Below, one piece after another: positions 18,290 through 23,341 of a stretch of DNA of 37,419 nucleotides. Both the position numbers and the translations under genes were made by a program. Each line of letters begins with the position of its first letter. Positions within the stretch are counted from its first letter, which is position 1. The notes beneath the pieces were generated by a model. It worked only from the letters and a program-made list of their open reading frames with translations. It did not search any database and had not been told where the DNA came from. The stretch comes from Candidatus Saccharimonadota bacterium (GTDB lineage Bacteria > Patescibacteriota > Saccharimonadia > CAILAD01 > BJGX01), in assembly GCA_014191035.1 (NCBI GenBank), contig BJGX01000008.1:1-37419 (forward strand), given 5' to 3'.

Positions 18290-18811
18290 TTACTTTGTCT
18301 TGCCGTTGCAAGTTTGTGGCGACCACAACCCTATAGAACTTTCTTTTGCCGCCGTCTGGGCATTTTTAAATTCATTTTGATACTTATAACTTTGACTTCT
18401 ATAGGTATATTCGTTGGCATAACCTTCTTTAATAAGCTTTAAGTTAACTAGTTCATTATTGCTCCACACATATGCAAGTAAGCGGTTATACTTGTCCTTT
18501 TCGCCAACAATCGGATCAAACTCTAATCTCACTCGCCCGCCAGATAATAAATCTTTACTTCTATCAGATGCTTCCTTTCCAAAGCACTGCACAGGTTTTC
18601 TTGGATCGAGAGTCTCTGGAGTATCAATACCAATCATTCTTACCTTTTCAGCTTTACCATACCTCTCAATTTCAATAGTATCTCCGTCTATTACTTTTTT
18701 GACACTATAGGTGTCTTTTGGCTGATTGTTTTGAGTTTCTCGAATAGACACAAGGGCTGCTACAAAAAATAGTAAAAGGCCTATAATAATCAGCTTAATT
18801 GGCTTGCTCAT
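18290..18811 (-). CDS. staphylococcal nuclease-like (SNase) endonuclease, membrane-anchored or secreted
   Basis: SNase-fold enzymes cut DNA and RNA with Ca2+. The 173-residue protein has an N-terminal hydrophobic segment (about 6-23) acting as anchor or signal, then the nuclease domain. Key residues are present: DGDT (42-45), Arg58 in VRMIGIDTPE with Asp63 and Glu66, and Arg110 in DKYNRLLAYV, matching the catalytic Arg35, Glu43 and Arg87 of the S. aureus enzyme. An external nuclease fits a cell that must scavenge nucleotides. The start overlaps the rodA stop (ATGA), so it belongs to the ileS-rodA operon. Confidence 0.93.
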   Translation of the reverse strand: MSKPIKLIIIGLLLFFVAALVSIRETQNNQPKDTYSVKKVIDGDTIEIERYGKAEKVRMIGIDTPETLDPRKPVQCFGKEASDRSKDLLSGGRVRLEFDPIVGEKDKYNRLLAYVWSNNELVNLKLIKEGYANEYTYRSQSYKYQNEFKNAQTAAKESSIGLWSPQTCNGKTK

Positions 18812-19935
18812 ACTAGCTCAGTATCTTTTAGCTCTCTACCCCTTCGTCTAGAATATACGCTTTCCACTATTCCAACCGCAAACAAACTTACCATTAAGCT
18901 GGTTCCGCCTGCAGAAATAAAAGGCAAAGGTATGCCAGTAACGGGCATAATTCCCAAATTCATTCCGATATTTACAAATACATGCACCACAAACATCGTA
19001 GCGATTCCAACACACAACAAACTTCCAAATCTATCTTGAGCCATACTTGCGTCAATTATCATTCTAATAATTACTGTTACAAAAAGTAGTATTACAATTA
19101 ATGCGCCTACGAAGCCAAGCTTTTCAGCTAAAACCGCAAAAATAAAGTCTGTTGGTGAACTTGGCAAAAAATTACCTTGACTCTGAGCGCCTCCGCCCAA
19201 GCCTTGGCCCGATACACCACCAGAACCAACTGCTATAATTGCCTGCTTTACATTATATCCAGTCCCGGATGGATCGGCTGTGGGTTGCAGAAAAGTACTT
19301 ACCCTTTGCTTCTGATAGTCTTTTAGGAATGGATAAGTTAATGGCATCGTAACTAGTAAGAGCAAGATTAATCCAATCATATATTTTTTATCAACCCTTG
19401 TAGCCAAGGTCATAACAAACCAAATTGAGCCGAGCACAATTGCCGTTCCCAGATCGGGCTGAACCAAAACCAAAAATATTGCCGGCAATGAGTAAGCTAA
19501 AGATTTAACAAGAACTCTAAACTGATTTGAGAAATCATAGTTTTGCGAATAAAATTTCGCAAGCACAATAATTAAGATAAGCTTGGAAACCTCCGATGGC
19601 TGAAACTGAAATGGACCAATAGCTATCCAGCGAGTAGCTCCAAGCCTTGTAACACCTAAAAATTCTACAGCCAGTAGAAGAACAATCATTATTACGTACA
19701 GTGCCCCACTGTATGATTTGAGAATCTTATAGTCATTTCTGGCAGCCACAACCATCAGAACAAGGCCTATCAAGGCGTAAACGATCTGTCTGGTTGTGTC
19801 CAGCTGGTTTGAAACTGCCTTTGCCTTTATTCCAAGGGAGTAGAGAACAATTAAGCCAAGAACTACCAGCAAAGTGGAGGCTGCTAGTAGCAAGTTATCT
19901 AAATTACCAAATTGCCAAAATGACTTACGTCTCAT
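18808..19935 (-). CDS. rodA: SEDS family peptidoglycan glycosyltransferase RodA/FtsW
   Basis: SEDS proteins polymerise lipid II into glycan strands in the membrane, working with a class B penicillin-binding protein. The 375-residue protein has about ten membrane segments and the family signature RLGATRWIAIGPFQFQPSEVSKL, plus the C-terminal PVTGIPLPFISAGGTSL loop. RodA (elongation) is favoured over FtsW because RodA proteins typically carry the short N-terminus seen here, but the distinction is not certain. No penicillin-binding protein is adjacent. It lies between ileS (4-base overlap) and the nuclease gene (4-base overlap). Confidence 0.93.
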   Translation of the reverse strand: MRRKSFWQFGNLDNLLLAASTLLVVLGLIVLYSLGIKAKAVSNQLDTTRQIVYALIGLVLMVVAARNDYKILKSYSGALYVIMIVLLLAVEFLGVTRLGATRWIAIGPFQFQPSEVSKLILIIVLAKFYSQNYDFSNQFRVLVKSLAYSLPAIFLVLVQPDLGTAIVLGSIWFVMTLATRVDKKYMIGLILLLLVTMPLTYPFLKDYQKQRVSTFLQPTADPSGTGYNVKQAIIAVGSGGVSGQGLGGGAQSQGNFLPSSPTDFIFAVLAEKLGFVGALIVILLFVTVIIRMIIDASMAQDRFGSLLCVGIATMFVVHVFVNIGMNLGIMPVTGIPLPFISAGGTSLMVSLFAVGIVESVYSRRRGRELKDTELV

Positions 19936-22826
19936 TTTTTCTCAAGTTCAATAGTCAAATGAGCGCCATCGACAGAAACTTGCTTAGTAAAATCTAAGCC
20001 CTTTTCGGACCGCATAAATTGCTCAGTAAGTGTCTCTTGAATAATCATGTTTTTAAACTCATCTACTGCAGTATTGAGCACTTCTGATTCACTATAAAGA
20101 CACAGTTTTATCCTATTCTCAACCTGTAGACCTGCCTCCTTGCGAGCTGACTGGATATTTCTTACTATATCTCTAGCGATGCCCTCGTTATGCAGTGATT
20201 GAGTAATTTCTGTATTCAATTCAACAGATAATTTGTCGTCTTGTTTGTAAGTTAACTCTTTTACATTTAGCTCTTCTGCGATGATTTCTTTGAGCCCTTT
20301 TTGAAGATCATTGGGGCCTCCAAGCTCTGCAGAAGCCAATGGTTGGCGTACTTTAATTTTAGCTTCGGCCCGTATAGACAAGCCATCATTAACATATTGC
20401 CTTACCATTTCCATATCTGAGAGTATACCACTATTCAACTCGGATGCTTCAGGCCAATCACAAAGGTGGACTGATTTAGGTGCGCTCATGATATCGGTAG
20501 TTATATTTCTGTATAGCCAGTCACTCATAAATGGCGACCAAGGAGCCAATAGTTTGCATGTAGTAACTAATGACCAGTGAAGCGTCTTATAAGCCTCTAG
20601 CTTATCGCTGTCATCCTCTGATTTCCAAAATCTACGTCGGCTTCTGCGCACATACCAGTTAGACATGTCGTCCACTAGTTTATATATTGGCCAAGTAGCC
20701 TTGCTTAGCTCAAAATTATCTGCTGCTTTAGTTACTTCATCTATGGTTTCATTTACTCTAGCTAACAGCCAATTGTCTAATGGGTTAGAAACATCTATTG
20801 GCATATCCATGCTATCTGGCGCCCAATCATCAATTTCGGTATACATAGTTAAGAAAGATGCGGTGTTATAAAGCGTCATAAATAGATTACGATTAATATC
20901 CTTCATAGCATCTCTATCAAAATTCATATAATCAGCCGTGACCGCAGGTGCACTAGATAAAAGATAATATCTCAGTGTATCGGCACCCTCATTTTCGAAA
21001 ACGTCCTCTATAGGTGGGTAGTTTTTTAATCTTTTACTGAGTTTTTGACCATCAGCAGCCATAATCATGCCGTTTACCAATACATTTTTATAGGCAGGCT
21101 TATCAAACACAATCGTTGATATTATATGCAAGACATAAAACCATAATCTAGTCTGATCAAGTCCTTCGCCAATATAGTCGGCCGGAAAACTGGCATCAAA
21201 TTGAGTTTTATTATCGTAAGGAAAATGCTGCTGGGCAATAGGCATTGAGCCAGACTCGAACCAACAATCGATTACTTCCTCTACCCTTCTGTAGGTTTTG
21301 CCTTCTCTTTCAATAACAACTTCGTCGATAAAAGGGCGGTGTAAATCATTTAGATCTTTGGCATTTGGACTTAACTTTTTAAGCTCTTCGATACTCTCAA
21401 CAACTATATAATCGCTGTCGTCTTTTTCATTAACCCAGATTGGAATTGGCGCTCCCCAGTAGCGGTTGCGCGATATAGCCCAGTCTCGAGCCCCTTCCAG
21501 CCATTTACCGAAGCGGCCAGTTTTAATATGTGATGGGTTCCAATTAATTTCAGAGGCTGTTGATAGCAACTGCTTTTTTATTTTTGAAACCGCCACAAAC
21601 CAAGTGTCAATTGAATAATATAGCAGCGGAGTGTCACATCGATAGCAGAATGGGTAAGTATGTCTAAAGGTTTCAGCTGAGAAAATTTTATTTTGCTCGG
21701 TCAGCTGCTCAATTATTAATTTATCGGCAGATTTGAAAAACTTACCCTCAAAGCTATCAAGACCAAAGCCCTGCTTAACCTTACCATCTGTGTCGATGGT
21801 GTTTATTACGGGGATATCGTTATCTTGCCCAAGTTTAAGATCGTCTTCGCCAAATGCTGGAGCGACATGCAAAACACCAGTACCGTCTTCGGTGCTCACA
21901 AAATCTGCTGACCATACTTTGTAAAGGTTTTCATGCTCTACGCCCACTTTAAAAATTGGCTCATATGAAAGCCCGACCAAATCTGTGCCCTTAATTTCTT
22001 CAATTATTTTGTAGTCGTCAGTCTTTAGTACCTCAAGTCTTTCTTTTGCTAAAACCAGAACCTCTTCATTATCCAGTTCGTCTTTTAATGCAATCTTCAA
22101 ATAGACTGCGTCCTGCTTTACTGCCAATGCAGCATTGCCCGGCAAACTCCACGGAGTAGTTGTCCAGGCCAGCATAAATGATTCTTCATCTTTAAGTTTA
22201 AACTTAACATAAACGCTTGGGTCTGGAGTGTCGTCCTTATAGCCCTCATTTACTTCAAAGTTACTTAGGGGAGTTGCACAACGTGGACAATACGGCATGC
22301 ATTTGAATCCTTTATAGATTAGGCCTTTGTCATGAATCTGCTTAAAAGTCCACCACACAGACTCTGTATACTCGCTATCTATTGTTGCATAAGAGTTCTC
22401 TTTGTCAGTCCAGCGTCCAATTCTATCAAAATAACCCTCCCACTCATTTTTGTAGGAAAATACCGAATCTCGACAGGCCTGATTAAATTTTTCCAAGCCA
22501 AGTTCCATAATTTGTTTTTTACCCGAAACATTAAATTCCTTTTCAATAGCAAACTCAACAGGCAAGCCATGACAATCCCATCCATTACGACGCTCAACAT
22601 AACGGCCCTTCATGGTTTGGTAACGGCCAATTGAATCCTTAATACTCTGAACTAAGCTGTGACCAAAATGTGGCAATCCATTTGCAAATGGTGGCCCGTC
22701 ATAAAAACTAAATGGCTCTCCATTCTTAGTTTTTTCTAAACTGGCCCTGAAAGTGTCTTCTTTTTCCCAGATAGATAAAATTTCTTCTTCGACTTGGTTT
22801 GGTTTGTACTGAGGTATTTTTTTCAT
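19932..22826 (-). CDS. ileS: isoleucyl-tRNA synthetase (IleS2, eukaryote-like type)
   Basis: IleRS charges tRNA-Ile. The 964-residue form starts at the ATG (MKKIPQYKPN) with an AGGAG Shine-Dalgarno 5 bases upstream. A longer reading back to 22898 would run into the T-box terminator and is rejected. The class I motifs are HFGH (53-56, in PPFANGLPHFGH) and KLSKR (595-599, in ADGQKLSKRLKNYP). The forms GLPH.GH and K.SKR.KNYP are those of the IleS2/eukaryotic type, which is often tolerant of mupirocin, not bacterial IleS1. A CP1 editing domain (about 190-400) with WTTTPWSLPGN and CxxC pairs at 177-183 and 394-397 is present. It is controlled by the upstream T-box and heads ileS-rodA-nuclease. Confidence 0.97.
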   Translation of the reverse strand: MKKIPQYKPNQVEEEILSIWEKEDTFRASLEKTKNGEPFSFYDGPPFANGLPHFGHSLVQSIKDSIGRYQTMKGRYVERRNGWDCHGLPVEFAIEKEFNVSGKKQIMELGLEKFNQACRDSVFSYKNEWEGYFDRIGRWTDKENSYATIDSEYTESVWWTFKQIHDKGLIYKGFKCMPYCPRCATPLSNFEVNEGYKDDTPDPSVYVKFKLKDEESFMLAWTTTPWSLPGNAALAVKQDAVYLKIALKDELDNEEVLVLAKERLEVLKTDDYKIIEEIKGTDLVGLSYEPIFKVGVEHENLYKVWSADFVSTEDGTGVLHVAPAFGEDDLKLGQDNDIPVINTIDTDGKVKQGFGLDSFEGKFFKSADKLIIEQLTEQNKIFSAETFRHTYPFCYRCDTPLLYYSIDTWFVAVSKIKKQLLSTASEINWNPSHIKTGRFGKWLEGARDWAISRNRYWGAPIPIWVNEKDDSDYIVVESIEELKKLSPNAKDLNDLHRPFIDEVVIEREGKTYRRVEEVIDCWFESGSMPIAQQHFPYDNKTQFDASFPADYIGEGLDQTRLWFYVLHIISTIVFDKPAYKNVLVNGMIMAADGQKLSKRLKNYPPIEDVFENEGADTLRYYLLSSAPAVTADYMNFDRDAMKDINRNLFMTLYNTASFLTMYTEIDDWAPDSMDMPIDVSNPLDNWLLARVNETIDEVTKAADNFELSKATWPIYKLVDDMSNWYVRRSRRRFWKSEDDSDKLEAYKTLHWSLVTTCKLLAPWSPFMSDWLYRNITTDIMSAPKSVHLCDWPEASELNSGILSDMEMVRQYVNDGLSIRAEAKIKVRQPLASAELGGPNDLQKGLKEIIAEELNVKELTYKQDDKLSVELNTEITQSLHNEGIARDIVRNIQSARKEAGLQVENRIKLCLYSESEVLNTAVDEFKNMIIQETLTEQFMRSEKGLDFTKQVSVDGAHLTIELEKK

Positions 22827-22843
22827 AAATCTCCTAATATAAC

Positions 22844-22872
22844 AAAAGACACCGCAAAAAATATGCGGTGTC
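22844..22872 (-). terminator. T-box-controlled terminator of ileS
   Basis: On the minus strand, GACACCGCA pairs with TGCGGTGTC (9 base pairs) and is followed by TTTT. Its first three bases (GAC) are also the last three of the antiterminator stem, so the two hairpins exclude each other. Confidence 0.9.
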
Positions 22873-23039
22873 AGGGTCCAAATTATGGACGGTACCACCT
22901 GACTTTCCTAATGGACACTTAATTTTGGCTCTTACATGGCCCTACGACGGGTTCTACTTTCAATACATTAGATTTCTTCCCGTGACGCTGCTTTGAACAC
23001 TTTCGGTTGATAGCCGATCGCTAAATTTATAGACGCCTT
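22844..23039 (-). promoter_or_regulatory. T-box riboswitch (tRNA-Ile) in the ileS leader
   Basis: A T-box senses uncharged tRNA and lets transcription pass. On the minus strand the antiterminator is GTCAGG (22903-22898), the bulge TGGTACC (22897-22891), GTCC, a 7-base loop, GGAC and CCTGAC (22875-22870). The bulge holds TGGT, which pairs with the ACCA end of tRNA-Ile. The terminator (22872-22844) follows. Upstream, CGG-CTATCAA-CCG (23016-23004) presents ATC, an Ile codon, followed by the usual purine, so it is a good specifier candidate. A stem ACGGG/CCCGT lies between. The specifier hairpin looks much shorter than a canonical stem I, recalling the ultrashort stem I of actinobacterial ileS T-boxes, but that part is my folding by eye. 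Confidence 0.92.
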
Positions 23040-23048
23040 AATAAACTA

Positions 23049-23054
23049 ATTATA
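23049..23054 (-). promoter_or_regulatory. -10 box of the ileS leader
   Basis: TATAAT (preceded by TG) on the minus strand puts the start site near 23042, just before the T-box. The full leader is then about 215 bases. No strong -35 was seen. Confidence 0.6.
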
Positions 23055-23074: not shown

Positions 23075-23341
23075 CTAGATATGTCCAACAGACTGGCTAA
23101 TAAATGAGTAATCAGGGAGCTCACCCTGCCAAATATTTACTACCGCGCCATCTTCTCTAATAAGAGCCAAGGATGGAAAGCTTACCACATCATAGCTTTC
23201 TGCCCTCTCTGCACCCCTTGCCGAATCAATATCAACTTTTTCTAGCTGAATATTATTTATTTTCAAATTTTTTATTAAATCATCAACAGAGCTTCTTCTG
23301 GAGTTGGTGCTTTTTTCAGACAAAAATAGTAATGCTTTCAT
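23075..23341 (-). CDS. small thioredoxin-like protein without CxxC
   Basis: The 88-residue protein looks like a minimal thioredoxin fold: MKALLFLSEKSTNS (strand and first helix), VDIDSARGAERAESYDVVSFPSLALI with the cis-proline (SFPS) and the closing strands DGAVVNIWQG. Where thioredoxins have CGPC it reads STNSRR, and there is no cysteine at all in the protein, so it cannot do thiol redox chemistry. It may act as a structural or binding protein. It lies 19 bases after nrdR and has its own TGCTAAAAT element 6 bases before the ATG. Function is unknown. Confidence 0.75.
   Translation of the reverse strand: MKALLFLSEKSTNSRRSSVDDLIKNLKINNIQLEKVDIDSARGAERAESYDVVSFPSLALIREDGAVVNIWQGELPDYSFISQSVGHI

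Follow-up and report, generated by a model that had tools for sequence, protein, structure and literature searches.

We found a complete T-box leader on the minus strand of the 37,419-nucleotide stretch of DNA analysed here (the window), at positions 22848-23017 and 5' of ileS (ATG at 22826), as judged by direct reading and by comparison. The leader consists of an AUC specifier hairpin, a stem II with an S-turn, a IIA/B pseudoknot, a stem III with a purine string, an antiterminator with the bulge UGGUACC and an overlapping intrinsic terminator. Taken together, these sequence features make it very likely that the leader is a tRNA-Ile-sensing riboswitch that controls the transcription of ileS and probably also that of the overlapping rodA gene. 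The host is an ultrasmall Saccharibacterium of the Patescibacteria (CPR). An earlier note on this DNA had described a transcriptional T-box with a 7-base bulge and TGGT in the antiterminator, an overlapping terminator with a T-run and an ATC-bearing hairpin in place of a long stem I, placed upstream of ileS in a CPR-like bacterium, and all of these elements were recovered in the analyses presented below.

The transcript is expected to start at about position 23042, downstream of an exact -10 promoter element, TATAAT, at 23049-23054 (minus strand, like all other features of the window given here). The -35 element located 17 nt before it, TAGAAA, is weak, and one such promoter site is also expected by chance; an exact -10 element was present in 30% of 87 leaders as compared to 8.8% in shuffled sequences. 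With the -10 element in this position, about 32 nt upstream of the specifier hairpin, a long stem I would not fit into the transcript. An ORF of 88 amino acids at 23075-23341, thioredoxin-like by eye, lies further upstream, about 20 nt separating its end from the -10 element. Stem I is ultrashort and is made up of the 15-nt specifier hairpin, UCGG-CUAUCAA-CCGA (23003-23017), with the AUC codon at 23009-23011. The interval between stem I and stem II contains a small extra hairpin, UGUUCAAAGCA (22989-22999), which was identified by direct reading and is present in the close relatives of the window; it is longer with the pairing preserved in L035 and L040, and missing from other families.

Stem II with its S-turn, ACGGG-AAGAA...AGUAGAA-CCCGU, spans positions 22947-22983, the pseudoknot region of stem IIA/B (GGC/GCC and CGU/AUG) 22927-22946, and stem III with its flanking purines, AAGUG-UCCauuaGGA-AA, 22904-22920. 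The latter corresponds to the RRRxG-stem III-AA motif (PMC7583486), and the S-turn, the pseudoknot and the purine string are all as expected for a T-box. The same is true of the antiterminator, GUCAGG-UGGUACC-GUCC-auaauuu-GGAC-CCUGAC (22870-22903), in which helices A1 (GUCAGG/CCUGAC) and A2 (GUCC/GGAC) are located on either side of a 7-nt bulge that starts with UGGN (UGGUACC, 22891-22897). The intrinsic terminator, GACACCGC-loop-GCGGUGUC, covers positions 22848-22872 and is followed by UUUUGUUAUA, and its GAC at 22870-22872 is also part of helix A1. The Shine-Dalgarno sequence AGGAG (22831-22835) lies outside the terminator stem and is therefore not sequestered.

The downstream gene (19932-22826) encodes an isoleucyl-tRNA synthetase of 964 amino acids that matches TIGR00392 with 907 bits, against a cut-off of 621. 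The stop codon of ileS is overlapped by 4 nt by rodA (18808-19935; TIGR02210, 375.7 bits), which in turn overlaps a nuclease-like ORF (18290-18811). Six relatives (L032, L033, L035, L039, L040 and L082) have the same gene order, ileS-rodA-nuclease, which together with the 4-nt overlap points to control of rodA by the switch as well. Thus, rodA is probably co-transcribed, and so co-controlled, with ileS, and the T-box may couple the charging of tRNA-Ile to a gene for cell shape.

A search of the window with Rfam at the gathering cut-off gave no match. Using E-values instead, the T-box model RF00230 aligned end to end with positions 22869-23030 yet scored only 26.6 bits (E = 5.5e-4), as compared to a gathering score of 93, so automatic annotation at the cut-off would miss the leader. 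The match was the only one to RF00230 in the 685-kb genome. The cut-off is a detection threshold rather than a functional feature, and a long stem I forms part of the model. A single-sequence fold of the leader was no better than those of shuffled sequences (z = -0.61) and is uninformative, for which reason the evidence rests on comparison. We built an independent covariance model exclusively from other families, leaving out the family of the window, and with its own RNAalifold structure. This model matched the window with 81.9 bits (E = 5.6e-21), the next match being at 5.8 bits, whereas canonical long-stem T-boxes scored at most 31.7 bits.

The proteins most similar to IleS, with identities of up to 80%, are from genomes of Candidatus Saccharibacteria and Patescibacteria UBA4664, consistent with a CPR host, and the same leader is present 5' of ileS in those genomes. 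The name Saccharibacteria is given to the host's class on the basis of these named relatives. In an alignment of 11 leaders, 95.7% of the pair cells were standard, and two-sided changes were observed in 61 cells as compared to 18.4 in shuffles (0 of 500 reaching the observed number) and no more than 11 when the register was slid; the IIA/B pseudoknot pairs were formed in 93.9% and covaried. Among 88 distinct leaders, in an alignment that was fitted to the structure and hence is biased towards it, 97.5% of the pairs were formed and two-sided changes numbered 628, as compared to 164 after shuffling (0 of 500). The specifier stem was paired in 100% with two-sided changes at 4 of 4 pairs, the lower helix of stem II in 93.6% (5 of 5 pairs), stem III in 98.5%, helix A1 in 100% (5 of 6 pairs) and helix A2 in 99.1%. 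The loop motifs of stem II (GAAGAA ... AGUAGAA) are nearly invariant among the relatives, and the bulge starts with UGG, and more generally UGGN, in all 88 leaders. Both of the checks named in the earlier note, a covariance-model search and covariation among ileS leaders, thus speak for the T-box identity: the match is weak with Rfam and strong with the independent model, and the specifier stem, A1 and A2 covary strongly.

The codon in the loop of the specifier hairpin is AUC in 88 of 88 leaders and matches the amino acid of the downstream synthetase. A single gene for tRNA-Ile(GAU) was present among the tRNA genes found in the host, with an encoded end of CCC-A-CCA, and hence AUC is complementary to the anticodon and the UGGU of the bulge to the ACCA at the 3' end, as in other T-boxes. 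Another AUC, located in stem II (GAAAUCUA), was ruled out as specifier because it is not conserved in the relatives. AUC is replaced by GUC in short-stem-I leaders located 5' of valS in two genomes of other Patescibacteria classes (L224:1501-1646 and L231:1501-1654), which, from the sequences, reads as a natural swap of specifier between ileS and valS. The ileS gene was located downstream of 72 of the 88 leaders, and the remaining ones had either a short flank in the data or a small intervening ORF. Such ORFs were seen in L145, L150, L154, L159, L164 and L190, and resemble by eye acetyltransferase, methyladenine-glycosylase and CYTH proteins. The IleS tree contains two deep clades within one class, separated by branches of more than one change per column and both with the same leader, which hints at either a replacement of the synthetase under a kept riboswitch or an old duplication.

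One terminator-like site was found, against 0.2 expected in shuffles. It competes with the antiterminator, although the overlap with helix A1 amounts to only 3 nt (GAC), and the U-tract is interrupted (UUUUGUUAUA). The modelled folds have energies of -25.3 kcal/mol for the ON state and -27.9 kcal/mol for the OFF state, a gap that could be small enough for a bound tRNA to bridge. In the modelled ON fold a 6-bp hairpin persists 3 nt from the U-tract and, in view of this residual hairpin and the short overlap, full read-through is only assumed. A hairpin with a U-tract was identified by script in 85 of the 88 leaders and by eye also in L032 and L035, the terminators of which (ACACCGC/GCGGUGU) had been passed over by the U-tract filter of the script.

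In most of the relatives the terminator is built differently. In 66 of the 88 leaders, the 3' arm of the best terminator identified by the script is paired with stem III, which lies 5' of the T-box sequence, and in a separate comparison of energies the stem III arm was better by at least 2 kcal/mol in 68 leaders and the canonical arm in 15. Stem III paired with the terminator of its own leader at a mean of -15.3 kcal/mol, as compared to -8.0 kcal/mol when terminators were swapped between leaders; none of 10,000 permutations reached the observed pairing, a result that is supportive rather than exact since related sequences are not independent. With the 5' arm of the terminator in stem III, the terminator is compatible with the antiterminator hairpin and mutually exclusive with stem III only; in the modelled OFF fold of L136 the whole antiterminator hairpin is retained atop the terminator. 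In controls consisting of clostridial ileS leaders and long-stem T-boxes from Patescibacteria, the 5' arm lay at the 3' side of the antiterminator, in most cases with an overlap with the 3' strand of A1, and never upstream; two of the controls yielded no terminator by the same method.

When the leaders were placed on a tree built from the N-terminal part of IleS, with 17 rows of the canonical and 54 of the stem III type, at least 7 changes between the two types were counted. Most of the window's family, in which L034, L174 and L183 are of the stem III type, and one other group are canonical. L156, scored as A1-type by the script, reads as a bulged version of the stem III type and probably carries the wrong label in the tree count. 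Based on these patterns, we consider it probable that the Saccharibacteria have a new expression platform, in which stem III provides the 5' arm of the terminator, the antiterminator hairpin persists in the OFF state and uncharged tRNA locks stem III against termination, and that repeated exchanges between this platform and the canonical one, among them that in the window's family, have taken place while the short-stem-I aptamer stayed the same. Such an off-switch in most leaders is unlike those of the described T-boxes, as far as a non-exhaustive search of the literature for stem III terminators goes.

By analogy with the known family, the leader should bind tRNA-Ile, sense its charging and respond in the direction typical of T-boxes. 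The AUC of the short specifier hairpin would pair with the GAU anticodon of tRNA-Ile, and stem II and the pseudoknot would brace the contact between codon and anticodon, replacing the absent long stem I. When tRNA-Ile is uncharged, its ACCA would pair with the UGGU of the bulge, locking stem III, A1 and A2. In the window, the locked A1 would retain GAC and leave the terminator without its lower 3 bp beside the U-tract, allowing the RNA polymerase to read through. When tRNA-Ile is charged, the amino acid would be rejected, A1 would open and GAC would join the terminator, so that transcription stops. In most relatives we infer the same sensor, with stem III competing with the 3' arm of the terminator and a tRNA-stabilised stem III resisting invasion.

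The aptamer is compatible with a different output. A short stem I, an apical-loop specifier and a required stem II characterise the class III aptamer, which is mostly translational (PMC10482949; for the ileS leaders of Actinobacteria, PMC1262725), and a leader of this type would hide the Shine-Dalgarno sequence of ileS rather than end transcription. We regard a translational T-box as very unlikely here, since a strong hairpin with an immediate U-tract precedes the Shine-Dalgarno sequence, AGGAG lies outside that hairpin, and a hairpin with a U-tract is present in nearly all of the 88 leaders. Even less probable is that the leader is a degenerate relic, the sequence of which was kept by descent after switching was lost. 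The low Rfam score and the short overlap between A1 and the terminator would fit such a relic, as would the base of A2, where the window has a G-C pair instead of the G-U wobble that has been described as the main steric sensor (PMC7583486). The relatives have G-U at this position in 52 and G-C in 19 of 88 leaders, suggesting that the wobble is common but not obligatory in Saccharibacterial leaders. Against a relic, compensatory changes are strong in every helix, the codon and the bulge are invariant, and terminators are kept although their pairing partner changes. The location of a terminator before ileS would also be seen if the leader were a constitutive or leader-peptide attenuator that does not sense tRNA, but this is the least credible of the three: a leader peptide is unnecessary as an explanation, the specifier tracks the synthetase (AUC with ileS, GUC with valS) and UGGU matches the end of the tRNA. 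A riboswitch that senses tRNA-Ile and acts on transcription is the preferred reading, although the low Rfam score, the G-C pair at A2, the 3-nt overlap with its residual hairpin, the 7-nt apical loop, the interrupted U-tract and the unremarkable single-sequence fold count against it.

Using a first family model that included the window (E <= 1e-3), we identified the element in 259 of 393 sampled genomes of the host's class, or about two thirds. The Rfam T-box model gave matches in 127 of 380 genomes sampled across the whole phylum, 13 of which were above the cut-off. T-boxes are common in the Patescibacteria as a whole. G193, G356, G216, G309 and others have long-stem ones that score above the Rfam cut-off, and some genomes have up to five T-box matches. 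The statement in the earlier note that T-boxes are known mainly from Firmicutes, Actinobacteria and a few other phyla is refined by these numbers. Likewise, the mix of features that it considered unusual is real, in that a short-stem-I aptamer is combined with a terminator and a free Shine-Dalgarno sequence, but is not restricted to a single genome.

These results place tRNA-sensing riboswitches in the CPR, and a search of the open-licence literature for T-boxes in Saccharibacteria, Patescibacteria, the candidate phyla radiation or TM7 retrieved no paper that mentions them. The stem III platform, if true, would open the role of stem III, which has been recognised only recently, to direct testing. 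Inducible expression is still to be developed for Saccharibacteria (2024 review, PMC11665869), and a switch that naturally governs an essential gene may serve as a control element in these bacteria.

T-boxes of classes I and II control transcription and have a long stem I, whereas those of classes III and IV have a short or intermediate stem I and mostly control translation (PMC10482949). The window shares with class III, as exemplified by Nocardia farcinica ileS and other leaders of Actinobacteria, a short stem I that lacks the elbow-binding double T-loop motif and an isoleucine specifier placed in the apical loop (PMC10482949, PMC1262725), as well as the S-turn in stem II, the IIA/B pseudoknot, stem III with an antiterminator-type discriminator and the target gene, a likeness that is drawn from published descriptions. 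It departs from class III, and from its mostly translational mode (PMC10482949), in having an intrinsic terminator with a U-tract and a free Shine-Dalgarno sequence, and in its Patescibacterial host. The apical loop, CUAUCAA, is 7 nt rather than 5-6 nt (PMC10482949), unless the outer C and A pair non-standardly, and at the base of stem I, where class III has a kink-turn, most relatives have UGA...GA and the window CGA...AAAG. With class I (Bacillus tyrS, Clostridium ileS) it shares transcription antitermination, the UGGN bulge, stems II, IIA/B and III, helices A1 and A2, and a terminator that overlaps the 3' strand of A1. Unlike in class I, the long stem I with its distal elbow-binding motif is replaced by a 15-nt hairpin, and most of the Saccharibacterial relatives use stem III as the 5' arm of the terminator rather than, as in the canonical scheme, the 3' strands of A1 and A2 (PMC7583486). 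Transcriptional T-boxes have been argued to need a long stem I for the fast capture of tRNA (PMC7583486); the Saccharibacterial class dispenses with it in a T-box that controls transcription.
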